Below, piece by piece: positions 742 to 38,954 of a DNA stretch of 56,780 nucleotides. The stretch comes from Deltaproteobacteria bacterium. Its GTDB lineage: Bacteria; Desulfobacterota; Desulfuromonadia; Geobacterales; Pseudopelobacteraceae. A program made the position numbers and the translations under genes. Location: NCBI GenBank assembly GCA_021779135.1, contig JAJYBH010000005.1, positions 1 to 56,780 on the forward strand. The letters run 5' to 3'. The notes under the pieces were generated by a model, which made no database searches, was not told the DNA's origin, and saw only the letters and a program-made list of their open reading frames with translations. Each line of letters starts with the position of its first letter. Positions within the stretch are counted from its first letter, which is position 1.

Positions 742-3700
742 CTATGCCTTCTCTATGTTGACGAGGAACGATTTGAACTCCGGTGTCTGGGTGTTCGCGT
801 CCCCCACGAAGGGGGTCAGGATGTTGGCCAGGTAGCCGCTCTTGGCCACACCCTTGAAGCCCCAGTGGATCGGGATGCCCACGTGGTGGACCGTCTTGCC
901 GTTGACCTGGAGCGGCTTGATACGCTTGGTCACCACCGCCACCGCCTTGATGAAACCCCGGCTGGACCAGACCTTGACCATGTCGCCGGCCTTGATGCCC
1001 TTCTCCTTGGCCAGCTCCTCGCTGATCTCCACGAACTGCTCCGGCTGCATAATGGACGCCAGGCGGGTGTGCTTGGTCCAGAAGTGGAAGTGCTCGGTCA
1101 GTCGATAGGTGGTGGCGGCGTAGGGGTACTCCTTGCTCTTGCCGAAGCCCTCCAGATCACCCTTGAATACCCGCGCAGCCGGGTTGCTGATCACCTTCGG
1201 GTGCAGGGGATTGCTGTCGATGGGGGTTTCGAAGGGTTCGTAATGCTCGGGGAACGGCCCTTCCGCCATCTTGTCCAGGGCGAACAGCCTGCCGACCCCT
1301 TCCGGCTGCATGATAAAGGGGCTCATGCCGTCACCGGGGGCCGCATCCGGCTTGAAGTCGGGAATATCGGCCCCGCTCCACTTGGCTCCGTCCCAGCCGA
1401 TCAGCTTGCGCTTCGGGTCCCAGGGTTTGCCTGCGGGGTCGCAGGAGGCGCGGTTGTACAGGACCCGCCGGTTGGCCGGCCAGGCAAAGGCCCAGTTGAG
1501 TGTGGTGCCGAGGCCGGAAGGATCGTAATTGTCCCGCCGCGCCATCAGGTTGCCTTTCTCGGTCCAGGCGCCGGAATAGAGCCAGCATCCGCAGGCCGTG
1601 CTGCCATCGTCGCGGAGCTGGCCGAAACCGTCCAGTTGCTGCCCCCTCTTCAGAATGGTCTTGGCCGGGTCCTTGGGATCGGGCAGGTCCGCCAGGGCCT
1701 TGCCGTTGTACTCCATGGCCAGTTCCTCGGGTGCCGGAGCCTCAGGGTTCCAGTAGTTCCAGGTCAGGTTCAGGATCGGGTCGGGGAAGGCCCCACCCTC
1801 CTTGCGGTACAAATCCCGCAGCTTGAGGAAGATGCCGGCGATGATATCGGCATCCGGCTTGGCGTCTCCCGGCGGCGGGGCCCCCTGGTAGTGCCATTGC
1901 AGCCAGCGGCCGGAGTTGGTCAGCGAGCCGTTCTCCTCGGCAAAGCAGGTGGAGGGGAGCCGGATGACCTCGGTCTGGATCTTGGCCGGGTCCACGTCGT
2001 TGTAATCGCCGTGGTTCTCCCAGAAGCAGGAGGTCTCCGTGGCCAGGGGGTCGATCACCACCATGTATTTCAGCGTGGACATGGCGCTGATCAGCTTGGC
2101 CTTGTGGGGGATCGAGGCCAGGGGGTTGAAGCCCTGGCAGAAGTAGCCGTTCAGCTTGCCCTGGTGCATCAGTTCGAACACCTGGAGCACATCATAGACC
2201 CTGTCCAGCTTGGGCAGCCAGTCGAAGCACCAGTTGTTCTCCTTGGTGGCGGCATTACCGTACCAGCTCTTCATCAGGCTGACGTGGAACTTGCCGTAGT
2301 TCTGCCAGTAGGACATCTGGCCGGGGCGCAGGGGTTTGAGGGCCCGCTTGGCGATATAGCCCTGGTAATCGGTTTCCTTTTCACCCGGCAGGGTCAGATA
2401 ACCCGGCAGGAGGTTGGACAGCAGCCCCAGGTCGGTGAGCCCCTGGATGTTGGAGTGGCCCCGCAGGGCATTCACCCCGCCCCCCGCCATGCCCACGTTG
2501 CCCAAAAGGAGCTGTACCATGGCCGCGGTACGGATCATCTGTGATCCCACCGAGTGCTGGGTCCAGCCCAGGGCGTACATGAAGGTCAGGGTGCGGTCGG
2601 GCACCGAGGTGCTGGCGATGATCTCGCACACCTTGAGGAAGGCGTCCTTGGGCGTGCCGCAGATAGTGCTGACCATGTCCGGCGTGTAACGGGAGTAGTG
2701 TGTTTTAAGCAGTTGCAGCACACAGCGGGGGTGCTGCAGGCTTTCATCGACCTTGGCATAGCCGTCCGGTCCGACCTCGTAGGCCCAGGTGGCCTTGTCG
2801 TATTTGCGGGCTGCCTCGTCGTAGCCGGAGAACAGGCCATCATCGAACTTGTAGCCTTCGGCCACGATGAAGGGTGCGTTGCTGTAGGCCTTGACGTATT
2901 CGTGCTGGATCTTGTTATTGCTGAGCAGGTAGTTGATCACCCCGCCCAGAAAGGCGATATCCGTACCGGTCCGCAGGGGCGTGTAGAGGTCCGCCACCGC
3001 CGCCGAGCGGGTGAAGCGGGGGTCTATGACGACGAGTTTGGCGTTGTTGTGGGCCTTGGCCTCGGTCACCCATTTGAATCCGCAGGGGTGGGCCTCGGCG
3101 GCGTTGCCGCCCATGACGATGATAACGTTGGCATTCTTGATGTCCACCCAGTGGTTGGTCATCGCACCGCGTCCGAATGTGGGGGCCAAACTGGCCACCG
3201 TTGGTCCGTGTCAGACCCGGGCCTGGTTATCGAAGGCCAGCATGCCCAGATTGCGGATAACCTTATGGGTGATGTAGCCGGATTCGTTGCTGGAGGCGGA
3301 GGCCGCCAGGAAGCCGGCGGACAGCCAGCGGTTGACCGTGTCTCCGGCGGCGTTTTTGGCGATGAAGTTCTTGTCCCGGTCGTCCTTCATCAGCCGGGCC
3401 ACCCGCGTAAAGGCCTCATCCCAGGAGATGCGCCGCCACTCCTTGGAACCGGGAGCGCGGTATTCCGGGTATTTGAGCCGGTTGGGACTGTGGATGAAAT
3501 CCACCAGTCCGGCGCCCTTGGGGCAGAGCGTGCCCCTGTTCACCGGATGGTCCGGGTCGCCCTCGATGTGAAATATGGACAGCTCGGCGTTCTTCGCCTT
3601 GTCACCCAGGCTGTGCATGATCAGCCCGCAACTCACCGAGCAGTACGGGCAGGTATTGCGGGTCTCGGTACTGCGGGCCAGCTTGAACTCGCGCACCTCC

Positions 3701-5782: not shown

Positions 5783-5814
5783 GCAATTAATGTTGCTCCT
5801 GCAATTAATGTTGC
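5783..5814. promoter_or_regulatory. Tandem pair of GCAA-N6-TTGC palindromes upstream of ferredoxin
   Basis: Two identical 14-mers GCAATTAATGTTGC at 5783-5796 and 5801-5814 start 18 bp apart. They match the palindrome found before the sigma-54-type promoters elsewhere in the window. They are upstream of the ferredoxin/bacterioferritin genes on the minus strand, and just after the stop of the preceding gene. I found only a weak GG-N10-GC (5757-5770), so the promoter used is unclear. Confidence 0.55.
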
Positions 5815-5818
5815 GACG

Positions 5819-6217
5819 TCATTCGATGATCGGGATGTCGGAATGTATCCCGCTGGTGAACTCAAGCACCTTGAGTATTTTGACGGTGAATCTGGTCAAT
5901 ACCTGAGGAATCTCCGGCAAAGTCACGGACGGATCATAGCCATCGAGCACGGCCGCGTCCGTGCTCCGTATAACCGATCCAAGCATCTGATAGCCCCTTC
6001 CCGTTTCCGGCACAACCGCCACAACCGAAACATGCGGGTTGGCGGCTATGTTCTCCAGTGTGGAGGGGCAAAACCAGTTCTCGAAGATCAGCAGGGAGTC
6101 TCCGGAAATGGCAACCTGCTCCCCGATAGCCAGGTGGGGCTGACCCAAGGAATCCGCCGTGGCAACGAACACGTACGATGATTGTTCTATCAAGCTTTTT
6201 ATCGGCTCGGTGATCAT
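5819..6217 (-). CDS. Pyridoxamine 5'-phosphate oxidase-like flavin-binding-fold protein
   Basis: A 132-residue protein with the split-barrel fold pattern: an N-terminal helix, SSYVFVATADSLGQPHLA, a central LLIFENWFCPSTLENIAANPHVSVVAV stretch and a short GRGYQMLGSV strand. These are typical of small flavin- or haem-binding members of the PNPOx-like family; the substrate cannot be told. A sigma-54-type promoter at 6325-6340 and a GCAA-N6-TTGC site at 6405-6418 lie upstream, grouping it with the ferritin-like and thiol peroxidase genes. The ferredoxin and bacterioferritin follow downstream on the same strand. A true vitamin B6 oxidase is unlikely at this length. Confidence 0.75.
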   Translation of the reverse strand: MITEPIKSLIEQSSYVFVATADSLGQPHLAIGEQVAISGDSLLIFENWFCPSTLENIAANPHVSVVAVVPETGRGYQMLGSVIRSTDAAVLDGYDPSVTLPEIPQVLTRFTVKILKVLEFTSGIHSDIPIIE

Positions 6218-6324: not shown

Positions 6325-6340
6325 CGCAGAAAACGTACCA
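6325..6340 (-). promoter_or_regulatory. Sigma-54-type promoter for the flavin-binding-fold gene
   Basis: On the minus strand TTGGTACGTTTTCTGCG gives the -24 GG and -12 GC with the required 10-base spacing, close to the consensus TTGGCACG-N4-TTGCW. The expected start of transcription is near 6314, about 97 nt before the ATG at 6217. Confidence 0.6.
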
Positions 6341-6404: not shown

Positions 6405-6418
6405 GCAACATAACTTGC
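6405..6418. promoter_or_regulatory. GCAA-N6-TTGC palindrome (putative activator site)
   Basis: GCAACATAACTTGC lies within a longer 8-6-8 inverted repeat CACTGCAA / TTGCAGTG at 6401-6422. It is 65 bp upstream of the -24 element at 6340, about one helical turn closer than in the three other cases. A half-site GCAA at 6495-6498 lies about 90 bp further out. Apart from these sites, the 319-bp gap 6218-6536 shows no gene. Confidence 0.55.
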
Positions 6419-6536: not shown

Positions 6537-9322
6537 TCAGACCTCGATCCGGAATTCGGCGCCCCCGTCACTATTGGACACCGAGAGTTTCCCCCCCATG
6601 TTGTTTTCTATGATGGACTTTGACATGAACAGGCCGATACCCGTGCCCTGCTGAGGGCCTTTGGTGGTGAAGTAGGGATCGAATATCTTGTCGATAATAT
6701 CCTCGGGAATACCGCCGGCATTGTCGAAAATGGTCACCAGCGATTTCCCCGGCATGGCCCCGATGCAAATCCTTACAAAGGGCGAGCAAACTTTGCGCTC
6801 AGTTATGACGTCCTTGGCGTTCATCAGGATATTGAGCAGGACCTGGGCGTACTCGTTGGGATATCCAAAAATGGTAACCCCCTCCTGCTCCTCCCGTTCG
6901 ATATGAATTCCGCATTCCTTGAAGCTGGCTTCAACCAGTGAAAGGGCCTTGTTTACCGCCTCATCGACCCTGAACTCGGATTTCTCACGTTCGGTGGAAA
7001 AAAAGTTCCTGAAGTCATCGATGGTGCGTGACATGTACTCGATGATCTCCATGGATTTGGCGACCGAAGTATCCAGAAACTCCTTGTCAAAACTGGGTGA
7101 TCCATAGAAAAATCCCAGCCTCTGTGTAAAAAGGCCCAGGGTGTTGAGGGGCTGGCGCCACTGGTGGGCGATATTGCCGATCATCTCACCCATGGCCGCC
7201 TGGCGGTTCTGCTGAATCAGGATAAGTTCCTGCTGGCGAAGCGCTTCCACGGCCCGCAAGCGCTGCAAGGTCTCGTCGCGGAGTTTTTGTTCCGCTATCT
7301 GACGACGTTCCTCGCGTAACATGTTATCGATGGCAAAGGAAATGTCGGTTCCCATCTGCTGGAGAAGTTCAACGTGCCTCGGGTCAAAGGCATCCTTTTC
7401 GGTAGCATACAGGGTAAGTGCGCCGATCACCCTCCCCTCCTCCTTCAAGGCCACGGAGGCGGATGCCCTGACACCATGGATGCGCCCGTTGTTGTGCCAG
7501 GGCCGTGTACGGGGATCGTTCAGAAAATCGTTGCAGATGAAATAGCTCCCGTTGCGGATGGCCATGGCGGTTGGCCCTCCACCTTCGGGTTCCGCGTTGA
7601 CCGTTATCCGGATATCATCCAGATAACCGCTCGCGCCGTATACCGCGACCTTCCGTACCGCACCGTCCGCCTCATTGACCAACCCGACCCAGGCGAGCAT
7701 GAAGCCGCCGTTTTCCACGGCAATCCGGCATATTTCCCGGAAGAGGGTATCACGGTCGCTTGCGCGAACAATGACCTGGTTGGTCTCGCTCAGAACCGAA
7801 TACAGGCTATTGAGACTCAGGAGCATTTTTTCCGTCAGTTCACGCTGGGAGATTTCTCCCAGCAGGCTCTCCACGGACGAGGCAAGCTGCTGTGTCCGTT
7901 CGGTCACGCGCTGCTCAAGTTCCTTGCGCGCCTGGAGCAACGCCTCTTCGGCCAGCTTTTGCTCGGTGATGTCGATCACCTTTGACAGGACGGAGGTCAT
8001 CCGCCCCTGCTGGTCTGTCAGTACCGAATTGTACCAGGTGCAATGCGTATGGCGCCGTTTTTGGAATAGTTGCGATTGTTTACGACAACCTGCGACGACA
8101 GCCCTTCGGACAATTGGGTTACCACCCTTTCGACAAGCGGGATATCCTCCTCAAAGATCATGTTCAACTCAGATATCGATTTTCCGACCGTCTCTGACGC
8201 ACTCCAGCCAAATATCCGTTCCGCCCCGCCGGTCCAGCGGGTGACAATAAAATCCCGGTCCCACTCGATTATTGCCAGTGGCGAATTATCCATATGGAGC
8301 CGCAACAGCTCATCGCTCCTGCGCCTATTTTCCTCGGCCCGCCTGAGTTCGGTGATATCCTGAACCGCGACCACGCACCCGACCGTGTTTCCATCGGCAT
8401 CGAATACCGGCGAGGCGCTGTTGATGACATGGGCCTCGCTCCCGTCGAAGCGCTCAATCCGCATCAACTGACCAGTCGTGGTCACCCCGTTTTGCAGCGC
8501 CAGGGCCGACGCCCGTTCCTCGGGCTCAACGGGCGTGTCCGTCTCGGCCCACCAGGCCTTGTAGGCGGCAAAGTCTTGGACAACGCGGGTCTCCATCCGC
8601 AATCCGCCCCACAGTTGCTCAAAGGCCCTGTTGGTCTGGATGGTGCCGCCAGCGGCCTCGGTAATGGCCACCCCTACCGGCAGGGCTTCCAGTACTGCCG
8701 ACAGGAGACGGCTTTTGTTTTCCGCCGTCCTCTGGGCAGCCTCCAGTTCGGCAATGTGTCGAAGCTGCATCTCTTCAACCAGTTTCTGTTCACTGCGATC
8801 AATGACAGCGATGCGGCACTCCTGGGCATCCTCCGATGCAATTCCCACGATCCGCACAAATAACCGGGTTTTATCGGCCCTGGCAAGCTCAATCATACAG
8901 GTTGTCATGCTCCGGCTCGCAAACACCTTTCCGAGATACTCAACGAAGACGGGGAGGGATTCACCGGTAACAAAAATAGCAAAGCGCCGGCCGATCACCC
9001 CTGAGCGTACTATTCCAAGGAGGCTGGCACCACTGAGGTTTACGGCGCTGATGACTCCATCGCGGTCGAGGGTGAAGTACCCGACCGGTGCAAAATCGAA
9101 AAGATCGACGTACTTCTCCACCTCATCCCTGAAGCGGCGGAGCTCTTCATTCTGCATCTCCAGTTCAATGTAGTGGACCTGCAATTCGTGCAGGAGTCGC
9201 TGCGTTTCGCCCTCTGTATGGGATGCATCATGTCCGGGAGCGGTCACCCCCTTTTTCAGGCGTTCTTCTGCCTGGCGGCGCAGCCTGGCCGATCCGGCGG
9301 AACGCTTTTCCTTGTCACCCAT
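6537..9322 (-). pseudogene. Multi-PAS/GAF sensor histidine kinase with a frameshift
   Basis: Order of domains: an N-terminal PAS (FDFAPVGYFTLDRDG), two more PAS regions (LEALPVGVAITEAAGG; MDNSPLAIIEWDRDF), a GAF domain (near FREICRIAVENGGFMLAWVG), then HisKA with IAHQWRQPLN and an HATPase with N, G1 (DNAGGIPED) and G2 (GTGIGLFMSK) boxes. There is no membrane segment, so it is cytosolic. The reading frame breaks inside the third PAS: the first half ends at 8018, while the expected TWYNSVLTDQQGRM continues in the next frame from about 8045, a one-base loss near 8040-8052. With the base restored it would be about 928 residues. The start at 9322 is the ATG of MGDKEK. It may be a real mutation or a sequence error. 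The NtrC-type regulator at 11387 is a possible partner. Confidence 0.8.
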
Positions 9323-9376
9323 TGCCAGCTCTCTCAAGTCCTGAAGATGTACAACCGGAACATATACTATCTTATA

Positions 9377-9405
9377 CAACAGCGCACCACAAGGGTGCGC
9401 TGTTG
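9377..9405. repeat. Perfect 12-bp stem hairpin between kinase and hydrolase genes
   Basis: CAACAGCGCACC and GGTGCGCTGTTG pair perfectly around a 5-base loop. Neither strand has a T-run after it, so it is not a classic terminator. It lies 55 bp before the kinase start and 70 bp after the hydrolase stop, and could be an attenuating hairpin or a dispersed palindromic repeat unit. Confidence 0.65.
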
Positions 9406-9474
9406 CGTCAATCAGTACGGCACTTCCGAGAAACCGGCGGATCTTGTTTTGCAGACAGAAGATCAGTATCGACA

Positions 9475-10464
9475 TTAGACAGTTGCCGCAACGATCCGTT
9501 CCACATCTGCTTCTATCCGGTCGTGGGCTGTGAGCCTTCTTCTCCATGCCAGGGGAATGGCCTGAATACCAAGATGGGCTCCCAGCCAGGCGCCGATCAT
9601 GGCGGCCCTGCCGGCGCTGTCGCCACCGGCATTTGCCGCGGAGCGGATCGCTCGTTCGAAATCGTCCTTGCAGACAAGCGTCGTGTGCAGCGCCGCGGTA
9701 AAACTGGAATAGAGCGGACAGGACTGCCCGAAGAGCACGGTTGCTTCCAGCACGGGAAGTATGCGTGCCGCGCAGGCGATCTTCATCCGTTTGTTGACTT
9801 CCGAGCGGTATTTGTCCTGCGCCGAAATGATCTGCCGGGTTTCGGCAACCGCCTCTTCCGGAGCGGCGCCCTTGATTATATGGTACAGGATCAGAGCCGC
9901 CGCCTGTGCATAGGCAATCGCCCGCGGGTTGTTCTGGCAGACGCGGGTCGCCATTGCAACCGTATCCAGCAGGTCCTGGTCGTCAAGGTGCGCTACGACG
10001 ACCGGGGCAAGATGGGTGACCGTCGCGGGCTGATCATCGTCGGCCCCCTGCTGGAAATCAAAGGGTTGCGCGGGATTTGCGTCGAGGTGGGCCAGGTAAT
10101 TTTCTATCATGCCCTGGGTGGCATGGTCGCGGTAGCCGGCGTAATTTTCCCCGGTCATGAGCCGCATGAGCCGGGAGCCGAAATCCACGGTTTCGAAGTG
10201 ACCGAGTTGGGCAACCGATGCCAGCATGACAAGGGCGGCATCACCATAATGGGTGAAGTCGCCGGCCTTCTTGCCAGCATGGTAGTGACCGGATGCGGGC
10301 GTTTCAAAGCCCTGAACTCCGCCCGGGAAGCGCTGGGCCAGCTCAGTCAGGCCGTAGATCCAGTGGCTCCCCAGACAGTAGGCATCGCCGATGAAACCGC
10401 CCCACAAGGCGCCCCTGATCCGATCTTCCCGGGTCAGGCTTGATTTGTTATTCGCAATAGTCAT
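9475..10464 (-). CDS. ADP-ribosylglycohydrolase family protein (crystallin J1-like)
   Basis: 329 residues. The N-terminal signature RGALWGGFIGDAYCLGSHWIYG and the C-terminal AGGDSAGRAAMIGAWLGAHLG match the DraG/ADP-ribosylhydrolase fold, whose members remove ADP-ribose from proteins or small molecules using two Mg ions. The usual TDDT metal motif is not present; HYHAGKKAGDFTHYGD stands there, as in the crystallin J1-like branch, so the substrate and even the activity are uncertain. The ATG at 10464 overlaps the end of the upstream ferritin-like gene by 17 bp, so the two are translationally coupled, an unusual partnership. Both should be transcribed from the sigma-54-type promoter at 11076-11091. 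Confidence 0.85.
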   Translation of the reverse strand: MTIANNKSSLTREDRIRGALWGGFIGDAYCLGSHWIYGLTELAQRFPGGVQGFETPASGHYHAGKKAGDFTHYGDAALVMLASVAQLGHFETVDFGSRLMRLMTGENYAGYRDHATQGMIENYLAHLDANPAQPFDFQQGADDDQPATVTHLAPVVVAHLDDQDLLDTVAMATRVCQNNPRAIAYAQAAALILYHIIKGAAPEEAVAETRQIISAQDKYRSEVNKRMKIACAARILPVLEATVLFGQSCPLYSSFTAALHTTLVCKDDFERAIRSAANAGGDSAGRAAMIGAWLGAHLGIQAIPLAWRRRLTAHDRIEADVERIVAATV

Positions 10465-10960
10465 GATCCCACCGACTGTCAGGAACGGCACCAGTCCGGC
10501 GCGTCCCCTCCGGCTTGATAAGTCGCTCGCATTCTTCTTCTATCATCTCGGCATGGTTGCGGGTCTCTTCCAGATTTTGCACAAAAATATCGCGGATTGC
10601 CGGTTCACGGATGGTCTCGACATAGGCGGAGTAGCACTCGATACAGGCCGTCTCTTCCTTGAGCGCAATCCGCAGGATATCGATTTCTGTACTGTTGCCG
10701 TGGATCGAGTTGAGCAGCGAGCGGTAGTAGGGATCATCATAGATGTTATTCTTGACGAGGGCGTGGTACAGATCATCTTCATTGCCCGGATAGAGGTTGC
10801 AAAACGATTCCAGATGTTCCTCCTCCTTCCGGGCCAACCGTTCGAGGACGTCCTTGCAGCGAATGTCATCGACCTTGGTCGACATGGCACGATAAAACTT
10901 CAGGCTGCGGTTTTCGATCATGATGGCTTCAATAATTGCTGTCTTGAGCAAGCTTTCCAA
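10448..10960 (-). CDS. Ferritin-like (rubrerythrin-type) diiron-domain protein
   Basis: 170 residues, nearly all helical, with carboxylate motifs of a four-helix diiron bundle: IENRSLKFY, ARKEEEHLESF, KEETACIECY and LEETRNHAEMIEEE. No rubredoxin-type CxxC domain follows, so it is a stand-alone erythrin-like protein that could reduce peroxide or handle iron. The C-terminal tail GTRRTGAVPDSRWDHDYCE is encoded over the start of the ADP-ribosylglycohydrolase gene. It is the first gene behind a sigma-54-type promoter and two GCAA-N6-TTGC sites. Closest family is inferred from motifs only. Confidence 0.8.
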   Translation of the reverse strand: MESLLKTAIIEAIMIENRSLKFYRAMSTKVDDIRCKDVLERLARKEEEHLESFCNLYPGNEDDLYHALVKNNIYDDPYYRSLLNSIHGNSTEIDILRIALKEETACIECYSAYVETIREPAIRDIFVQNLEETRNHAEMIEEECERLIKPEGTRRTGAVPDSRWDHDYCE

Positions 10961-11075: not shown

Positions 11076-11091
11076 TGCAGTGTCCATGCCA
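11076..11091 (-). promoter_or_regulatory. Sigma-54-type promoter for ferritin-like/hydrolase operon
   Basis: Minus-strand TGGCATGGACACTGCA has -24 GG and -12 GC ten bases apart. It differs at only two positions from the promoter before the thiol peroxidase (TGGCATGGATACTGCT, 36969-36984). The predicted transcript starts near 11065, leaving a leader of about 105 nt. Confidence 0.7.
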
Positions 11092-11167: not shown

Positions 11168-11181
11168 GCAATGCTTGTTGC
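11168..11181. promoter_or_regulatory. GCAA-N6-TTGC palindrome, promoter-proximal
   Basis: GCAATGCTTGTTGC, 77 bp upstream of the -24 element at 11091 on the minus strand. It is in the divergent region between the ferritin-like gene and the sigma-54 activator gene, so could serve either. Confidence 0.6.
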
Positions 11182-11255
11182 AGGAAATGTGCGGCCATGA
11201 GGAATCGAAAACGGAAATCATTGAACTTTTTCTTCTGCAACGCGGATCATGTGAT

Positions 11256-11269
11256 GCAACAATTATTGC
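11256..11269. promoter_or_regulatory. GCAA-N6-TTGC palindrome, promoter-distal
   Basis: GCAACAATTATTGC, 88 bp from the proximal copy. Together they form an enhancer-like pair. The rest of the 426-bp gap 10961-11386 shows no gene; I saw no convincing sigma-54 promoter pointing at the activator gene. Confidence 0.6.
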
Positions 11270-11386
11270 AACAATATTCATCAGCAACGAGTTGTACCTG
11301 CTTGATTATTTGAAAAAGTTGACTAGACTATAAACCTGCAACGGTTTGATACTCGGAGCAAACAAATCTACTGCGGGGTCCGCGAC

Positions 11387-12817
11387 ATGAATCATCAGGA
11401 AGTCACCTCCAATCCCATACTGCTCGTGGACGATGAAGCGGACGCTCTGTCATTGCTGCAGTCGTTTCTGTGTCATGACGGATTCCGGAATGTGGTCACC
11501 TTTGATGACAGTCCGCGGGCACTGGAGTACTTCAAGAACGAGGATGTCGCCCTCGCGGTCATCGATTTGAGGATGCCCAAACTTCATGGAAGCGATCTCC
11601 TGGAGGCCTTTTCGGAATTGAAGCCGGCGGTGCCCGTAATCGTTGTAACCGCGGAAAGCGATGTGAATACCGCCATCGACTGCATGAAAACGGGGGCTGC
11701 CGATTATCTGACAAAACCGATCTCCATCAGTCGCTTTATCACCAGCGTACATAGAGCCCTCGAATTGCGCAGGCTGGATGAAGAGATATCCCTGCTGGAG
11801 AATTCTTCCGACAATGACATCTCCGCCCGCGCACCGCACATCCCTTCCATCATCACCCGGGACAAGGAGATGCTGACACTTCTAAGCTATGCGGAGGTTG
11901 TTTCGAAATCGAGGCAGCCGGTGCTCATCACCGGGGAGACCGGGGTCGGCAAGGAACTGGTTGCAAGGGCGGTACACACCCTGAGCGGCTTGAAGGGCGA
12001 CTTTATCAGCATCAATATCGCGGGACTGGACGACCAGATGTTTTCGGACACCCTGTTCGGACACCGCCGGGGGGCCTTCACCGGTGCGCTCAATGACCGC
12101 GACGGACTGATCATGAAGGCGGCCAACGGAACCATGTTCCTCGATGAGATCGGTGACCTGAATGAACTGTCGCAGATCAAGCTGCTCCGTCTGCTCCAGG
12201 AGAACGAATACTACCAGCTTGGCTCCGACACGCCTCTAAAAAGCACGGCAAGACTGGTTGTGGCGACCAACAGGAATCTCTGGAAATGCATGAATGACGG
12301 GAAGTTCAGAAAGGATCTCTATTATCGGCTCTGTACGCACCAGGTAGCCATACCGCCACTGCGCAAGCGACCGGACGACATACCGCTCCTGCTGGAGCAT
12401 TTCATCAGACAGTCAGCAAAAACACTTGGCAAGGGAAAGTTGACCTATCGCAAGGAATTGGTCGATTTTCTTGTTACCTACGAGTTCCCCGGCAATATTC
12501 GGGAACTTCAGTCAATCGTCCATGATTTTGTCAGCAGGACCACGACGTCCAAACTCTCCACGGCTCTGTTGAAAAAGGTCATGACGCGTGAACAGGAACC
12601 TGCAACATCAATGCTGGAACACGAATACCCGGCCACCTCCCCGGATTTCAATGGAATAACCTTTTCCTCGTTTCCCACGCTTAAACATGCCGAGACCATA
12701 CTTATCGAGAAAGCGCTTGAAATTGCCAGGAACAACCAGGGAACCGCCGCCCGGATGCTCGGAATAACACGTCAGGCGTTGAACAACAGACTCAGGAGGG
12801 AGAAAGAGAGGAAATAG
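11387..12817 (+). CDS. Sigma-54-dependent response regulator (NtrC family)
   Basis: 476 residues in three parts. A receiver (about 10-130) has VDDEAD and the phospho-acceptor in VIDLRMP near residue 60. The AAA+ domain (about 150-390) has Walker A GETGVGKE, the sigma-54-contacting loop GAFTGA, Walker B MFLDEIGDL and the arginine-rich FRKDLYYRL region. A Fis-type helix-turn-helix closes it (NNQGTAARMLGITRQALNNRLRRE). It opens promoters held by sigma-54 after phosphorylation by a kinase. Its flanks hold divergent or downstream sigma-54-type promoters with GCAA-N6-TTGC palindromes, so it is the prime candidate to bind them. A partner kinase could be the frameshifted gene at 6537-9322, inferred from proximity. 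Confidence 0.95.
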   Translation: MNHQEVTSNPILLVDDEADALSLLQSFLCHDGFRNVVTFDDSPRALEYFKNEDVALAVIDLRMPKLHGSDLLEAFSELKPAVPVIVVTAESDVNTAIDCMKTGAADYLTKPISISRFITSVHRALELRRLDEEISLLENSSDNDISARAPHIPSIITRDKEMLTLLSYAEVVSKSRQPVLITGETGVGKELVARAVHTLSGLKGDFISINIAGLDDQMFSDTLFGHRRGAFTGALNDRDGLIMKAANGTMFLDEIGDLNELSQIKLLRLLQENEYYQLGSDTPLKSTARLVVATNRNLWKCMNDGKFRKDLYYRLCTHQVAIPPLRKRPDDIPLLLEHFIRQSAKTLGKGKLTYRKELVDFLVTYEFPGNIRELQSIVHDFVSRTTTSKLSTALLKKVMTREQEPATSMLEHEYPATSPDFNGITFSSFPTLKHAETILIEKALEIARNNQGTAARMLGITRQALNNRLRREKERK

Positions 12818-12868
12818 ATATCTGAATATTTTTTGAAGCTTCCTGCATGGTTCCCGCACCATCCTGCC

Positions 12869-12890
12869 AAGGGGCATCCCCTTTGTTTTT
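12869..12890 (+). terminator. Rho-independent terminator after the activator gene
   Basis: AAGGGG-CAT-CCCCTT stem followed by TGTTTTT, 51 bp after the stop of the sigma-54 activator. This separates it from the lipoprotein gene, which then needs its own promoter. Confidence 0.75.
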
Positions 12891-12991: not shown

Positions 12992-13005
12992 GCAACTTTT
13001 GTTGC
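12992..13005. promoter_or_regulatory. GCAA-N6-TTGC palindrome, distal to lipoprotein promoter
   Basis: GCAACTTTTGTTGC, 90 bp from the degenerate copy at 13082 and 167 bp from the -24 element. It lies in the 418-bp gene-free stretch 12818-13235, which otherwise holds only the terminator and promoter parts listed here. Confidence 0.6.
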
Positions 13006-13081: not shown

Positions 13082-13095
13082 GCCATATTTGTTGC
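13082..13095. promoter_or_regulatory. Degenerate GCAA-N6-TTGC site, proximal to lipoprotein promoter
   Basis: GCCATATTTGTTGC differs from the palindrome by one base in the left arm. Its end is 77 bp from the -24 element at 13172, the same distance as for the ferritin-like operon, which supports it despite the mismatch. Confidence 0.45.
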
Positions 13096-13171: not shown

Positions 13172-13187
13172 TGGTACAAAAGGTGCT
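13172..13187 (+). promoter_or_regulatory. Sigma-54-type promoter for the coiled-coil lipoprotein
   Basis: TTGGTACAAAAGGTGCT provides -24 GG and -12 GC with 10 bases between. Predicted start is near 13198, 38 nt before the ATG. Confidence 0.65.
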
Positions 13188-13235: not shown

Positions 13236-13616
13236 ATGAAAAAGCTGATCGGACTACTTGGCGTGATGGCACTTTTCACTATGGCGGGGTGCGCGACGGA
13301 AGGGTTTGTCCGTTCCCAGGTAGATCCCCTGGCAGACCGCCTCAGCAAGCTCGAAGCCCAAGTCTCGCAACTTGGCGGGATGACTGCAGCCGACAAGGAT
13401 GCCATTAAGCAGGCCAACGACAGATCCCAGCAGGCTCTCGATGCGGCTAACAAAATGGCGGGAGACGTAAAAATCGCTAATAACGATGCAAAAAAAGCAG
13501 AAGATGCGGCTATGAGGGCAGAAAATGCAGCCAAAGAGGCTGAAAGGGCTGCCAGGGAATCCCAGCAAATGGAAAAGAAATCGGAAAAGATCTTCAAGCT
13601 TGAGCAGAAGAAATAG
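13236..13616 (+). CDS. Small alanine-rich coiled-coil lipoprotein
   Basis: 126 residues. An N-terminal signal ends in the lipobox-like MAGC near residue 19, so the mature protein is lipid-anchored. The rest is a long helix rich in Ala, Lys and Glu with heptad-like spacing (DRLSKLEAQVSQL, then KKAEDAAMRAENAAKEAERAARE), resembling the Lpp / alanine-zipper layout of envelope spacer proteins. GGGAGG lies 7 nt before the ATG. Behind it, 68 bp on, is an L,D-transpeptidase, the enzyme class that links Lpp-type lipoproteins to peptidoglycan, although the C-terminus here is ...EQKK and a role as substrate is inference. Controlled by a sigma-54-type promoter. Confidence 0.85.
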   Translation: MKKLIGLLGVMALFTMAGCATEGFVRSQVDPLADRLSKLEAQVSQLGGMTAADKDAIKQANDRSQQALDAANKMAGDVKIANNDAKKAEDAAMRAENAAKEAERAARESQQMEKKSEKIFKLEQKK

Positions 13617-13684: not shown

Positions 13685-14572
13685 ATGATCCGAAAACACC
13701 TGTTACAAACAGCGATACATCTCTGTCTCATTGTGACTGCTGTTTTTTGCCGGCAAAATTCTTATGGGGCTGAATTCGCATTTCGACAAGGTGTGGGCGG
13801 TTATATCTCCGTCCACACGATCAAAGATGACGATTCCCTTGTTGAACTGGCCAGGCACTATGATATTGGCTACAACGAGATTGTAGCCGCCAATCCCGGA
13901 ATAGACCCCTTTGTTCCCACAGTCGGAACCAAGGTTATGATCCCGAAAAAGTGGCTTCTACCTGATGTCCGGTTGCGCGACGGGATAGTCATCAACCTGT
14001 CGGAAATGCGCCTCTACTATTTTCACCCGCGTACAAAAGAGCTGATCGACACCTTCCCTATCGGCATCGGTGACGAGGGTTGGGATACACCTCTCGGGAC
14101 ATACAGCATTATCGAGAAGATCGTAAATCCGGCCTGGCACGTTCCGAGATCAATACGGGCGCAGAAACCGGAACTGGCGGAAATCGTGCCAGCCGGGCCC
14201 GACAACCCCCTGGGCACGCATGCCCTGCGCCTGTCAATCGGCAGCGTGCTCATCCATGGCACCAATCATCCGTTCGGCATCGGCAGGAGGGTCAGCCATG
14301 GCTGCATCCACCTTTATCCCGAAGACATCGTCAAACTATTCAAGAAAGTGCGCCGGGGGACCAAGGTCGTCATCATCCGGCAACCGGTAAAAATAGCTGC
14401 CGCCGGTGACCGGGTTCTGGCGGAAGTTCATGGAGATGAGGAAATAGATCTGGAGCAGGAGGCAATCAACCTCCTGGACCGCAAGAATTTGTTCGCCAGA
14501 GTTGATCTTGGCAAATTAATGACCGTCTTGAAAGCCAACTACGGAATGCCCACGGATGTTACGAAGGAGTGA
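13685..14572 (+). CDS. L,D-transpeptidase with LysM-like domain (YkuD/ErfK family)
   Basis: 295 residues. A signal peptide ending near NSYGA is followed by a LysM-like segment (VHTIKDDDSLVELARHYDIGYNEIVAANPG) that would bind peptidoglycan, then the YkuD catalytic domain with HGTNHPFGIGRRVSHGCIHLYPED carrying the active-site His and Cys. It makes 3-3 peptidoglycan crosslinks or attaches lipoproteins to the wall in the periplasm. It lies 68 bp after the coiled-coil lipoprotein with no terminator between, so the two are probably one unit. A fragment of another YkuD gene lies just downstream on the other strand. Confidence 0.93.
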   Translation: MIRKHLLQTAIHLCLIVTAVFCRQNSYGAEFAFRQGVGGYISVHTIKDDDSLVELARHYDIGYNEIVAANPGIDPFVPTVGTKVMIPKKWLLPDVRLRDGIVINLSEMRLYYFHPRTKELIDTFPIGIGDEGWDTPLGTYSIIEKIVNPAWHVPRSIRAQKPELAEIVPAGPDNPLGTHALRLSIGSVLIHGTNHPFGIGRRVSHGCIHLYPEDIVKLFKKVRRGTKVVIIRQPVKIAAAGDRVLAEVHGDEEIDLEQEAINLLDRKNLFARVDLGKLMTVLKANYGMPTDVTKE

Positions 14573-15460: not shown

Positions 15461-15531
15461 TATTATACGTGTAAATACTGTATTACATAATATAAGAGCA
15501 CTACTAATCTCATATGACAAAGAAGGTCCAT

Positions 15532-16971
15532 ATGCGAAAAACTGATTTATTGAGAATAGGCATGACAATTCTTGTTACAACCTCAATGTTTTTCTGTCTC
15601 GCAATCCTGAGTGGCTGCGAAAGCAAAGGCAAATCAGAATTCGTGGGTTTTCCCCAGTCATTTGCCGATCTGGCGGAGAAGGTACAGCCCGCCGTGGTGA
15701 ATATCAGCACCACTTCGACCGTCACGATTCCGGGCAATCCGTTTTTTCATTTCTTCGGCCAGGGACAAAATGACCGTACTGATCCCTTCGGAGATTTCTT
15801 CAAGAATTTCTTCGACCAGAACCCGGACCAGAAGATGAAACAACAAAGCCTCGGTTCCGGTTTCATCATTCACAAGGACGGTTACATCATCACCAATAAC
15901 CATGTCGTGGCAAAAGCCGACGAGATCAAGGTCAAGCTCTCCGACGGCCGGGAATTCAAGGCCAAGGTCATCGGCCGGGACCCCAAGACCGATCTGGCGC
16001 TGATCAAGATATCCTCGCTCTTCAAGGACCTTCCGGTACTTGAGCTGGGAGATTCCGACAAGATGCGGGTTGGAGACTGGGTACTCGCGGTGGGCAACCC
16101 CTTCGGGCTCGAACACACGGTGACCCAGGGGATCATCAGCGCCACCGGCAGGGTAATCGGCTCGGGCCCCTATGACAACTTCCTGCAGACCGACGCCCCG
16201 ATCAATCCGGGCAACAGCGGCGGGCCGCTGGTCAACCTCAAGGGAGAGGTCATCGGCATCAACTCGGCAATCATCTCCGGCGGTCAGGGTCTCGGCTTTG
16301 CCATACCCAGCTCCTTGGCCAAATCAATAACAGCCCAACTGAAGGAAAAGGGGAAAGTCGTGCGCGGCTGGATCGGGGTGACAATCCAGACCGTAACCCC
16401 GGAACTGGCCCAATCATTCGGCATGAAGGAAGCAAAAGGGGCATTGGTGGGTGATGTCGTCAGTGGCGGGCCGGCGGAAAAGAGCGGCATCAAAACCGGC
16501 GACATTATCGTCTCGTTCGACGGCAGGAACATCAAATCTTCCAACGACCTGCCCCGCATAGTCGCCGAAACTCCGGTGGGTAAAACCGTCGATGTAACCG
16601 TCATTCGCGACAAGAAGGAAGTACATCTCTCCCTCAAGGTGGAAGAGCAGACCGAAGAGAGGATCGCTCTCCAGACCAGCACGCCACTGCAAGGTTTCGG
16701 GATGAAGGTGGACAACTTGACGGCACAGTTGCGCAAGCAATTCGGCATAACTGATAAATCGGGCATTGTCGTTGTGAGCGTGGAGCCGGGAAGTCTGGCT
16801 GCTGAATCGGGGATACAACCGGGTGACGTCATCAAGGAGGTCAACCGGAAGGCCGTCAGGAACGTCGCTGATTACAACCAGGCTATCGTGAGCGGCGGTG
16901 AGGGGCAGCCGGTACTGATGCTGCTGAAAAGGGGAAGGCAGACCTTCTTCGTGTCCATGGAACGGCAATAA
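15532..16971 (+). CDS. HtrA/DegP-type periplasmic serine protease, lipoprotein
   Basis: 479 residues. N-terminal hydrophobic segment with lipobox-like LSGC, then a trypsin-like protease with the catalytic triad His in TNNHVV, Asp in KTDLALIKI and Ser in GNSGGPL, followed by two PDZ domains (about residues 290-375 and 395-475). It degrades or refolds damaged envelope proteins. The anchoring cysteine is unusual compared with soluble DegP. I prefer the ATG at 15532, preceded by AGAAGG at 5 nt; the ATG at 15514 has no ribosome site. It begins a run of same-strand envelope and redox genes reaching 25127. Confidence 0.93.
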   Translation: MRKTDLLRIGMTILVTTSMFFCLAILSGCESKGKSEFVGFPQSFADLAEKVQPAVVNISTTSTVTIPGNPFFHFFGQGQNDRTDPFGDFFKNFFDQNPDQKMKQQSLGSGFIIHKDGYIITNNHVVAKADEIKVKLSDGREFKAKVIGRDPKTDLALIKISSLFKDLPVLELGDSDKMRVGDWVLAVGNPFGLEHTVTQGIISATGRVIGSGPYDNFLQTDAPINPGNSGGPLVNLKGEVIGINSAIISGGQGLGFAIPSSLAKSITAQLKEKGKVVRGWIGVTIQTVTPELAQSFGMKEAKGALVGDVVSGGPAEKSGIKTGDIIVSFDGRNIKSSNDLPRIVAETPVGKTVDVTVIRDKKEVHLSLKVEEQTEERIALQTSTPLQGFGMKVDNLTAQLRKQFGITDKSGIVVVSVEPGSLAAESGIQPGDVIKEVNRKAVRNVADYNQAIVSGGEGQPVLMLLKRGRQTFFVSMERQ

Positions 16972-36793: not shown

Positions 36794-36807
36794 GCAATAT
36801 TTATTGC
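36794..36807. promoter_or_regulatory. GCAA-N6-TTGC palindrome, distal to tpx promoter
   Basis: GCAATATTTATTGC inside a longer inverted repeat GGTGCAATA / TATTGCACC (36791-36810). It is 87 bp from the second copy. The 463-bp stretch 36640-37102 has no convincing gene; it holds this pair and the promoter. Confidence 0.62.
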
Positions 36808-36880: not shown

Positions 36881-36894
36881 GCAATATTTATTGC
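36881..36894. promoter_or_regulatory. GCAA-N6-TTGC palindrome, proximal to tpx promoter
   Basis: Identical 14-mer to the copy at 36794. It ends 75 bp before the -24 element at 36969, matching the geometry of the ferritin-like and lipoprotein promoters. Confidence 0.62.
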
Positions 36895-36968: not shown

Positions 36969-36984
36969 TGGCATGGATACTGCT
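36969..36984 (+). promoter_or_regulatory. Sigma-54-type promoter for the thiol peroxidase gene
   Basis: TGGCATGGATACTGCT, with GG and GC separated by 10 bases. Predicted start near 36995 gives a leader of about 108 nt to the ATG at 37103. Confidence 0.7.
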
Positions 36985-37102: not shown

Positions 37103-37732
37103 ATGAAACGACCTATTCTCATCAACGTAATCACCGTTATCTTCCTGTTCCTGACATACGGCTGCGCGAAGAAATTGGGCACGGACATTCCCATTGATAT
37201 CGATTCATCGACACCTGGCGGGACGGTAACCCTGCATGGCGAAAAAGTCCGTCTCACCGGTACTCCGCTCCGGATTGGCGCTGCCTTGCCTGCAACTGCC
37301 CTTATTGACGCCTTTACAATGGCCAAAGTAGACCTCTCGCAGTTGAGGGGTAAGGTTCTCATCCTGAGCCTTGTGCCATCACTGGATACCAAGGTATGCG
37401 AGACCCAGACCCATCATCTCGGAGAGATGGGGGCGCGTCTGCCGGCAGACATCGCCAGAATTACCATCAGCCGCGATACCCCCTTTGCACAGAAACGTTT
37501 TGCCGAAGAGGCCAATCTAAAGGGAATCACCTATTTATCAGATTACCGGGATGGGTCGTTTGGTCGATCTACGGGCCTTTTGCAAGAGGAAAGCATGCTC
37601 CTGGCGCGCGCGGTGATTATTGTGGACAAGAACGGTATCGTCCGCTACATCCAGGTGGTACCCGAATTGAGTCACCTGCCCGATATGGAGGTGGCCCTCA
37701 GAAAAGCAAAAGATATTTATGCCGGCTCATAA
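37103..37732 (+). CDS. tpx: Thiol peroxidase (Tpx), lipoprotein form without resolving cysteine
   Basis: 209 residues. Peroxiredoxin that reduces hydroperoxides. The peroxidatic cysteine is in SLDTKVCETQT (E. coli SIDTGVCAASV). The E. coli resolving cysteine in LPFAQSRFC is replaced by alanine here (TPFAQKRFAEEA), so it should work as a 1-Cys enzyme with another thiol partner. The N-terminus has a signal with YGC, a lipobox-like end, which would place the enzyme in the envelope; E. coli Tpx is about 40 residues shorter. A sigma-54-type promoter drives it, and three envelope-related genes follow on the same strand. Confidence 0.9.
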   Translation: MKRPILINVITVIFLFLTYGCAKKLGTDIPIDIDSSTPGGTVTLHGEKVRLTGTPLRIGAALPATALIDAFTMAKVDLSQLRGKVLILSLVPSLDTKVCETQTHHLGEMGARLPADIARITISRDTPFAQKRFAEEANLKGITYLSDYRDGSFGRSTGLLQEESMLLARAVIIVDKNGIVRYIQVVPELSHLPDMEVALRKAKDIYAGS

Positions 37733-38363: not shown

Positions 38364-38954
38364 ATGCTGAAGCGAATCTTACTCATAGCAAGTATGGGAA
38401 TTATCGTATCTGCACCGGCTCATGCAAGTGTTACCGATGTCGTGAAAAAGACCGTGGATGAGGTCGTCAGCATTGTCTCGAGCAAGGAGATGCAACAAAA
38501 CCCACTCAAACGCCGCCAGGCCCTGAAACAGGCCATCAACGTCATCTTCGATTACACCGAGATGGCCAAACGTTCCCTGGGCAGGCACTGGAACGAGCGC
38601 ACCCCGGCCGAAAGAAAACAGTTTGTCGCTTTATTCGCAACCCTGCTCGAGAATTCATATGCCGACAAAATTGAATCCTACCACCATGAAAAGATCGAAT
38701 ACATCAATGAAACGGAGGACAACGGTTACGCCGAGGTCAAATCGAGGATCTTGACCCCTTCGCATGATTTTTTCTCTCTGGATTATAGGCTGATGAACGA
38801 AAATGGAAAGTGGATGGTCTATGACGTGGTTATCGAGGGTGTCAGCCTGGTTTCCAATTATCGCTCTCAGTTCAACAGAATTATCTCGGAAAACGGCTAT
38901 AGCGAACTGCTCAAGAAAATGGAGAACAGAAGCGAGGACATTAAAGCTCGCTAG
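38364..38954 (+). CDS. MlaC/Ttg2D family periplasmic phospholipid-binding protein (possibly HpnM)
   Basis: 196 residues with a signal peptide (APAHAS). Family features: VTDVVKKTVDEVVSIVSS, FDYTEMAKRSLGRHWNERTPAERKQFVALFATLLENSYADKI and GKWMVYDVVIEGVSLVSNYRSQF. MlaC moves phospholipids between membranes; HpnM is a related protein tied to hopanoid clusters. No mlaFED genes are near, while hopanoid genes start 2 kb downstream, so either role is possible. Confidence 0.88.
   Translation: MLKRILLIASMGIIVSAPAHASVTDVVKKTVDEVVSIVSSKEMQQNPLKRRQALKQAINVIFDYTEMAKRSLGRHWNERTPAERKQFVALFATLLENSYADKIESYHHEKIEYINETEDNGYAEVKSRILTPSHDFFSLDYRLMNENGKWMVYDVVIEGVSLVSNYRSQFNRIISENGYSELLKKMENRSEDIKAR

Follow-up and report, generated by a model that had tools for sequence, protein, structure and literature searches.

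We analysed a stretch of 56,780 nucleotides from a Deltaproteobacteria bacterium of the order Geobacterales (assembly GCA_021779135.1, contig JAJYBH010000005.1, positions 1 to 56,780), hereafter the window, in which the complete open reading frame (ORF) 11387-12817 encodes an NtrC-type response regulator, designated RR. The gene lies between two sigma-54-type promoters, each preceded by a pair of palindromic sites, one before a ferritin-like gene upstream and the other before a lipoprotein gene downstream, and a third promoter of the same build stands before a redoxin gene elsewhere in the window. An earlier note, made from the sequence alone, had proposed RR as the master activator of promoters in its own neighbourhood. 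Both the position of these promoters and their distribution across the order point to RR as their activator.

The regulator and its flanking promoters

Pfam assigned to RR a receiver domain (Response_reg, PF00072, 7.3e-27), a sigma-54-activating AAA+ domain (Sigma54_activat, PF00158, 3.6e-53) with an AAA lid, and a C-terminal Fis-type helix-turn-helix (HTH; HTH_8, PF02954, 5e-8). The translation places the receiver aspartate within AVIDLRMPK and contains the Walker A motif GETGVGKE, a Walker B-like FLDEIGD and an intact GAFTGA loop; this loop and the Fis-type DNA-binding end had both been recognized in the earlier note. RR scored above none of the cut-offs among the 25 curated equivalog families listed. 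Its best scores were for NtrC (TIGR01818, 318.2 bits against a cut-off of 558.6) and AtoC (316.3 against 714), followed by GlrR/QseF (NF011695, 284.5 against 763), ZraR (NF007689, 282.1 against 760) and PrsR (TIGR02915, 268.8 against 502.6).

The sites follow the 14-mer palindrome GCAAY-N4-RTTGC, and a composite promoter is defined here as two sites plus a sigma-54 element (Table 1). Both promoters described beside RR were recovered, the ferritin-like one with sites at 11168-11181 and 11256-11269 and its sigma-54 element, and the lipoprotein one with a single mismatch in its proximal site, which recurs at the same place in the genomes G001 and G118 (one mismatch each; genomes are cited by G and loci by L numbers). 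As the note had stated, we found no sigma-54 promoter for RR itself; an alignment of 10 orthologous regions instead shows TTGATT-like and TANACT-like boxes (TATATA in two), resembling a sigma-70 promoter, that precede the start codon by approximately 55-90 nt. A consensus sigma-70 scan near RR did not list this TTGATT/TAGACT candidate.

Within the window, palindromes with at most one mismatch occurred nine times against 2.3 expected, a count reached in none of 100 shuffles, and one palindrome with a sigma-54 element at 60-84 nt occurred three times against 0.03 expected (0/100 shuffles). These three matches correspond to the ferritin-like, redoxin and PNPOx-family promoters; because of its mismatch, the lipoprotein promoter escaped this pattern. 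Sigma-54-like elements alone were not enriched (167 against 190 expected). A weight matrix that models the whole promoter, built from 22 distinct promoters, gave 72.9 for the redoxin, 60.9 for the ferritin-like and 58.4 for the lipoprotein promoter, the best of 20 single-base shuffles reaching 21.1; since all three belong to the training set, these scores show contrast and not independent prediction. Across the entire 3.43-Mb genome, the strict site-site-promoter pattern matched the ferritin-like and redoxin promoters and a looser pattern added only the lipoprotein promoter, so that exactly three matches resulted, all within a 26-kb stretch of the window. The word "master" was therefore overstated. 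The 14-mer alone is weak evidence; bare GCAAYN4RTTGC occurs at 39 places in the genome and the reversed pattern at 5.

Distribution of the regulator and the composite promoter

We searched 141 genomes of the order for RR orthologues at a threshold of E at most 1e-150, and identified 21 copies in 20 genomes, separated by an identity gap (at least 59% versus about 52% or less). These copies formed one clade with 100/100 support in a tree that included 19 of the 21 copies, the other two being truncated at contig ends, together with 13 of 20 paralogue loci and 3 of 12 PrsR loci, translation having been limited to the plus-strand genes of each locus. The HTH stretch LGITRQALNNRL was identical in 20 of the 21 copies, the remaining one carrying a single I-to-V change; it was compared with 11 of those 13 paralogues, hand-picked, and three PrsR proteins.

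The strict composite promoter was detected at 22 places in 13 of the 141 genomes, with no match for the reversed control; the looser pattern gave 26 matches, confined to those 13 genomes, and its control gave 3. It was present in 12 of the 20 RR-positive genomes versus 1 of the 121 RR-negative ones (Fisher p 1.9e-11). The sole genome with a strict promoter but without RR, G035, has a poor sigma-54 match, and G002 and G003, which belong to the same genus as the window's genome, have neither RR nor the promoter, their paralogues scoring E 3e-116 and 8e-140. The earlier note had reasoned that genomes lacking the protein should not keep the palindromes. This did not hold for bare palindromes or for single ones with a sigma-54-like element, which occur there at about background level, but it did for the composite promoter, with its single RR-negative genome. 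Neither simpler pattern served as a marker: the bare 14-mer separated genomes poorly, and one site plus a sigma-54-like element was not discriminating (13 of 57 genomes, reversed control 9 of 57).

A comparison of orthologous promoters gave a concordant picture. Redoxin lipoprotein orthologues occur in 13 genomes (identity at least about 60%, then a gap to 45%), and the promoter was complete in three of six RR-positive orthologues (G000, G001 and G110) and in none of the six assessable among seven RR-negative genomes, G009 being left out for too little upstream DNA. PrsR, the known sigma-54 regulator closest in concept and present in 88 of the 141 genomes, showed no association with the promoter (10 of 13 promoter genomes versus 78 of 128 others, p=0.20) and was rejected as the binder. 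The genome has a separate PrsR at G000:C19; a palindrome of perfect type, TGCAACGCTTGTTGC, lies approximately 260 bp behind that gene (G000:C19:29651-29665).

In eight orthologue genomes (G000, G118, G115, G102, G001, G121, G101 and G030), the full triad is located divergently just upstream of RR. Counted from the RR start, the two sites fall at -215 to -220 and at -125 to -133, and the sigma-54 element falls at -304 to -312. The layout recurs in G116, where the proximal site is degenerate; this promoter, not part of the training set, scored 57. By weight matrix, 9 of the 21 RR copies had a strongly scoring adjacent promoter, eight of these promoters being in the training set, and 11 of 21 gave a score within 800 bp, versus none of 32 other sigma-54-activator loci. 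The copies without a score are those of G109, G020, G015, G008, G041, G051, G084, G110 and G117 and the second copy of G029; those of G110, G117 and G084 are cut by contig ends. G084, from another family, has a palindrome immediately after RR, with a sigma-54 element 178 bp (2 x 89) further along and a GTTGC half-site near the midpoint, a layout that gave no weight-matrix score. In G029, a good promoter (50.8) was found elsewhere in the fetched locus, before a gene for a haem-motif protein. Among 66 other pieces, six scored above 40, five of them from RR-positive genomes and one from a Nitrospirota locus. Co-occurrence, the redoxin promoters and adjacency thus support the proposal that RR binds the palindromes and would drive the flanking sigma-54 promoters.

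The promoters also share a common geometry. We measured 24 of the 26 looser-pattern promoters, many of them orthologous and the doubtful G035 included (L145 and L154 failed the centring filter), and obtained 86-91 bp from site to site, start to start, and 82-91 bp from the proximal site to the promoter. Because the original pattern itself limited both gaps, we opened them to 59-89 nt; 22 of 23 places remained in the narrow box (13.5% expected if uniform), with only one place added and none in the control. Beyond the distal palindrome, 18 of the 24 promoters carried an extra TTGC half-site at a distance of 18-20 bp, and none carried one beyond the proximal palindrome; it stands at 21 in the window's lipoprotein promoter, and was present in all 10 aligned RR-adjacent regions. 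IHF-like sites, scored against a consensus, were slightly enriched in the promoter-side gap (7.08/9 matches versus 6.69 +/- 0.13) and the inter-site gap (6.96/9 versus 6.50 +/- 0.15), both above all 200 single-base shuffles, which do not keep dinucleotides. The fixed geometry is the oddest feature of the system, and the enhancer layout is unusually rigid. At L070 in G051, a site pair 88 bp apart has sigma-54-like elements approximately 90 bp off on both sides (scores 43 and 36), which suggests a putative bidirectional enhancer.

Genes behind the promoters

Table 1 Position of the regulator gene, its candidate sites and the associated genes in the window.
Feature	Position	Strand	Basis or remark
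GAF-HisKA-HATPase part of histidine kinase	6537..8000	-	Pfam; probable cognate kinase
N-terminal part of the same kinase, PAS domain	8018..9547	-	Pfam; frame interrupted near 8000-8030
ADP-ribosylglycohydrolase-family protein	9475..10491	-	PF03747 1.1e-46; in-frame ATG at 10461
Ferritin-like/rubrerythrin-family protein, first gene of operon	10448..10960	-	PF02915 6.6e-9
Sigma-54 -24/-12 element of ferritin-like operon, TGGCATGGACACTGC	11077..11091	-	sigma-54 pattern search
Proximal site, ferritin-like promoter, GCAATGCTTGTTGC	11168..11181		14-mer palindrome
Extra half-site TGCAAC	11236..11241		19 bp from matching half of distal palindrome; 10/10 aligned regions
Distal site, ferritin-like promoter, GCAACAATTATTGC	11256..11269		14-mer palindrome
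Possible sigma-70-type promoter of RR, TTGATT-N16-TAGACT	11302..11329	+	boxes kept in 10 aligned orthologous regions
RR, NtrC-type response regulator, 476 aa	11387..12817	+	translation, Pfam; orthologue clade support 100/100
Terminator-like hairpin after RR	12868..12885	+	consensus match only
Distal site, lipoprotein promoter, GCAACTTTTGTTGC	12992..13005		perfect 14-mer
Proximal site, lipoprotein promoter, GCCATATTTGTTGC	13082..13095		one mismatch; palindrome search, weight matrix
Sigma-54 element of lipoprotein gene run, TGGTACAAAAGGTGC	13172..13186	+	sigma-54 search, weight matrix
Lpp/OprI-like alanine-zipper lipoprotein	13236..13616	+	NF040598 36.8 bits, below NCBIfam cut-off 43
LysM plus YkuD L,D-transpeptidase	13685..14572	+	Pfam
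HtrA/DegP-type protease	15514..16971	+	Trypsin_2 and two PDZ stretches
Distal site, redoxin promoter, GCAATATTTATTGC	36794..36807		palindrome search
Proximal site, redoxin promoter, GCAATATTTATTGC	36881..36894		palindrome search; identical to distal
Sigma-54 element of redoxin gene run, TGGCATGGATACTGC	36969..36983	+	sigma-54 search
Redoxin/AhpC-TSA-family lipoprotein, thiol-peroxidase-like	37103..37732	+	PF08534 4.7e-19
MlaC, in redoxin gene run	38364..38954	+	PF05494 3.1e-51
Possible fourth promoter, sigma-54 element TGGTACGTTTTCTGC	6326..6340	-	before PNPOx_N-family gene 5819-6217

From strand and spacing, we infer that the ferritin-like, ADP-ribosylglycohydrolase and kinase genes form an operon. 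The kinase is a single ORF in G001 and G118 and is split into two frames in the window (6537-9547). A relative with 48-69% identity to the window's GAF-HisKA part was found near RR in 11 of the 20 orthologous loci fetched; the GAF-HisKA core is kept in these relatives and the N-terminal sensor parts differ. In G118 and G001 the sensor part consists of a DUF4118-like domain and PAS, with DUF4118 above the cut-off in G118 and just below it in G001, and the window kinase gave a Pfam match to PAS but none to DUF4118. The neighbouring histidine kinase is probably the cognate partner of RR.

Behind the lipoprotein promoter, a gene without a Pfam match sits between the LysM/YkuD gene and the HtrA-type gene. 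An Lpp-like orthologue, 81% identical, occupies the same place in G118; in G001, the first gene after the equivalent promoter is HtrA, with no lipoprotein or transpeptidase gene found between the two. The possible fourth promoter, that of the PNPOx-family gene, has one site only (6405-6418), at an altered spacing of 79 nt. The usual geometry is seen before the G001 orthologue and a weak form in G109 (score 32), and G030 has a promoter of the same sequence type before a different gene. Just behind the PNPOx-family gene, two identical copies of GCAATTAATGTTGC lie 18 nt apart (window 5783-5814), a spacing similar to that between dimers at the distal sites; this place yielded no composite promoter, and the 14-mer has one further copy in the genome, at C122:1108. 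Terminator-like consensus matches were not above shuffles (4 versus 2.1 +/- 1.5). A SECIS_3 element (Rfam, 75.8 bits) at 3158-3216 on the minus strand, between two minus-strand ORFs, likely points to a selenoprotein gene split by UGA.

In other genomes, the first genes behind the promoter encode, by Pfam, an OmpA-type protein (L132), MlaC followed by an OmpA-type protein (L084), a multicopper-oxidase-like surface protein (L106), cytochrome c7-like (L091), alpha-amylase-family (L131), thioesterase-superfamily (L175) and thioredoxin-fold (L109) proteins, a fibronectin/DUF5666 protein with a cytochrome domain (L095) and a protein without a match (L097). Envelope and redox functions recur among the targets, but the set drifts.

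We also scanned one genome for each of 84,980 species with the composite pattern, blind to the protein. The scan returned 57 stretches, many of which, as single matches in unrelated taxa, were taken for chance. Ten of these genomes were checked for RR, and an orthologue (59%) was found only in G146 (Geobacter sp. OR-1, with the same coordinates as G051); among the matches listed for the other nine, none exceeded about 50% over the full length, and one reached 53% over part. In three Nitrospirota genomes (L115, L121 and L126), the promoter follows a gene with 48% identity to RR at a distance of 16 to about 85 bp, and in L115 it precedes a gene for a beta-propeller-like protein. The distal element in these genomes comprises two sites in tandem, 20 bp apart, an arrangement that supports interpreting the half-site of the Geobacterales promoters as a position for a second dimer. 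The sigma-54 elements there (TGGAAT...TTGC) obtain low scores from the Geobacterales model. Because these regulators fall outside the RR clade and have a similar helix (GITRQALNRRL), the motif preference may be older than the clade or common to several activators.

A second class of sites combines GCAACC-like palindromes with promoters of the type TGGCAY-N5-TTGC, similarly spaced, and stands before genes for proteins that look secreted or resemble regulators (L063, L073, L080, L081, L094, L112, L119, L134 and L138). It also occurs in genomes without an RR orthologue, namely G007 and those of L112, L094, L134 and L138. A PrsR-type label for the GCAACCnnGGTTGC class was withdrawn.

Proposed mechanism and relation to known systems

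We consider it highly probable that RR is the DNA-binding response regulator of a sigma-54 two-component system that drives these composite promoters and thereby an envelope and oxidative-stress regulon; the best reading of the sequence data is that this putative regulon is lineage-specific. The kinase, whose gene is divergent from RR and closes the ferritin-like operon, would phosphorylate RR, whose dimers would occupy the distal palindrome with its adjacent half-site as well as the proximal palindrome and assemble into a hexameric ATPase ring. DNA looping, perhaps aided by bends, would then open the sigma-54 polymerase complex approximately 90 bp further on. The predicted targets are the ferritin-like/ADP-ribosylhydrolase/kinase operon, the Lpp-like/L,D-transpeptidase/HtrA run and the redoxin/MlaC run. 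As the kinase is the last gene of the first of these, positive feedback would follow. RR itself would probably be made from the sigma-70-type promoter just beyond the distal site.

Several observations weigh against this reading. Eight of the 20 RR-positive genomes have no strict promoter (G008, G015, G020, G029, G032, G041, G084 and G116), including all five of genus g6, and the intergenic regions of four g6 orthologues contained conserved blocks but no clear paired site. Beside RR, G029 and G032 have only degenerate promoters (scores about 22), and G008, G015, G020 and the second G029 copy have none. The redoxin genes of the RR-positive genomes G020 and G032 have neither site pair nor promoter, and that of G051, also RR-positive, has two sites 89 bp apart and no sigma-54 element. 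The pattern of one site plus a sigma-54-like element divides into 5 of 10 RR-positive and 8 of 47 RR-negative genomes, and its reversed control matches as well. The Fisher p-value overstates independence because the genomes share ancestry, as do many of the promoters counted. The window's kinase frame is interrupted, and signalling in this strain may therefore be impaired, or the assembly may be wrong. The envelope and oxidative-stress role is read from gene families, and the targets vary between genomes. Binding and activation are themselves deduced, with co-occurrence and geometry as their support, and other activators in these genomes share similar recognition helices (TRQALN), so that a paralogue could bind the sites.

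We regard it as unlikely that such a paralogue, another sigma-54 activator with a similar HTH, binds the palindromes while RR is merely nearby. There is no shortage of candidates, with 28-30 RR matches per genome among relatives (28 candidates scored) and TRQALN- or TRQTLN-type recognition helices in several of the 11 aligned paralogues, and the three Nitrospirota regulators outside the RR clade adjoin the same layout. However, the composite promoter tracks the patchy distribution of RR and adjoins it in eight genomes, was not found near the 32 other activator loci, and is missing together with RR from G002 and G003, where paralogues are present; PrsR, the one other activator whose own distribution was compared, does not fit either. 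It is more improbable still that RR mainly controls other promoters or acts as a repressor, with the sigma-54-like elements being accidental. The distal site does lie just upstream of the putative sigma-70 promoter of RR in 10 aligned regions, and for the paired redoxin sites of G051 the expected position lacks a sigma-54 element, but the site-to-promoter spacing is about as tight as the site-to-site spacing, also with the gaps opened, the GAFTGA loop of RR is intact, and the element fits -24 GG/-12 GC, although conservation of the TGG, A and GC letters is built in because the search itself required them. We rejected chance or composition as the source of the palindromes, an explanation with hardly any probability left to it, given the shuffle counts, weight-matrix scores far above shuffles, the absence of the reversed composite pattern from all 141 genomes and gaps that stay narrow at 22 of 23 places when the search is widened, even though coding-rich sequence in general also contains the bare 14-mer, RR-negative genomes have it together with a single sigma-54-like element, and the perfect 14-mer does not outnumber its reversed control in g6 and f4 genomes, G051 excepted.

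RR as activator of the composite promoters can be compared with characterized regulators. NtrC (NRI) of E. coli and its relatives has the same order of receiver, AAA+ and Fis-type HTH. NtrC sites are paired palindromes of TGCA-type half-sites upstream of sigma-54 promoters, as are the RR sites, and the RR spacing is narrower; RR differs in that no nitrogen genes were seen among its targets and its NtrC score lies well below the cut-off given above. Passages of Haft 2006 (PMC1569441) describe how PrsR was inferred in the PEP-CTERM system from the shared distribution of protein and DNA site, the same logic as used here, with a motif ending in TTTACA, sometimes repeated, and a spacer of 62.8 +/- 10.6 nt to the sigma-54 promoter. 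PrsK/PrsR thus resembles the RR system in its NtrC-type regulator, its order of activator site, spacer and sigma-54 promoter and the sometimes repeated site, and differs in its motif, its looser spacer and its HTH (three PrsR proteins). As a sigma-54 two-component system for the envelope, QseE/QseF (GlrK/GlrR) of E. coli is the best functional analogue; parts of PMC6075780 describe envelope homeostasis via glmY and rpoE, several upstream sites and assistance by IHF, and it differs in its site, TGTN12ACA, and in having a small RNA and a sigma factor as targets.

For the same order, paired predicted sites attributed to unidentified global regulators are described in the main text of the genome paper on Geobacter metallireducens (PMC2700814), whose authors suggest IHF/HU proteins as binders. 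An overlap with the motif described here is possible; GCAAC and TTGC were not found at a word start in that main text, the site sequences being in its supplements. A large sigma-54 regulon is described for Geobacter sulfurreducens (PMC2725144), whose main text does not contain the words ferritin, rubrerythrin, lipoprotein or HtrA, and nothing on such paired sites was found in the portion covered of the Desulfovibrio vulgaris sigma-54 regulome (PMC4641369). The view of Francke 2011 (PMC3162934, in part) that sigma-54 controls the bacterial exterior fits the predicted RR targets. Literature searches, at the level of listings and of main texts without supplements, returned no description of this motif or regulon, and three N-containing consensus spellings of the motif had no occurrence in the literature listed.

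The geometry permits a more tentative proposal, which we consider possible but would not favour: a fixed ruler in which a dimer pair, on a full site plus its half-site 18-20 bp away or, in the three Nitrospirota genomes, on a full tandem spaced by 20 bp, is followed by a single dimer approximately 88 bp on and, after a further 88 bp, by the promoter, so that precisely three dimers, the DNA being bent in both gaps, would form one hexameric activator in a defined wrapped complex shared by two phyla. If true, this ruler would be a rigid enhancer, unlike the flexible looping usually assumed for sigma-54 activators. The conserved spacing constitutes a natural promoter series with which to ask whether a fixed three-dimensional layout is required of bacterial enhancers or a loop suffices. 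Collectively, these findings would assign a motif, a probable partner kinase and a target set to one anonymous sigma-54 regulator among the many in Geobacterales, and would tie RR to envelope upkeep and oxidative defence.

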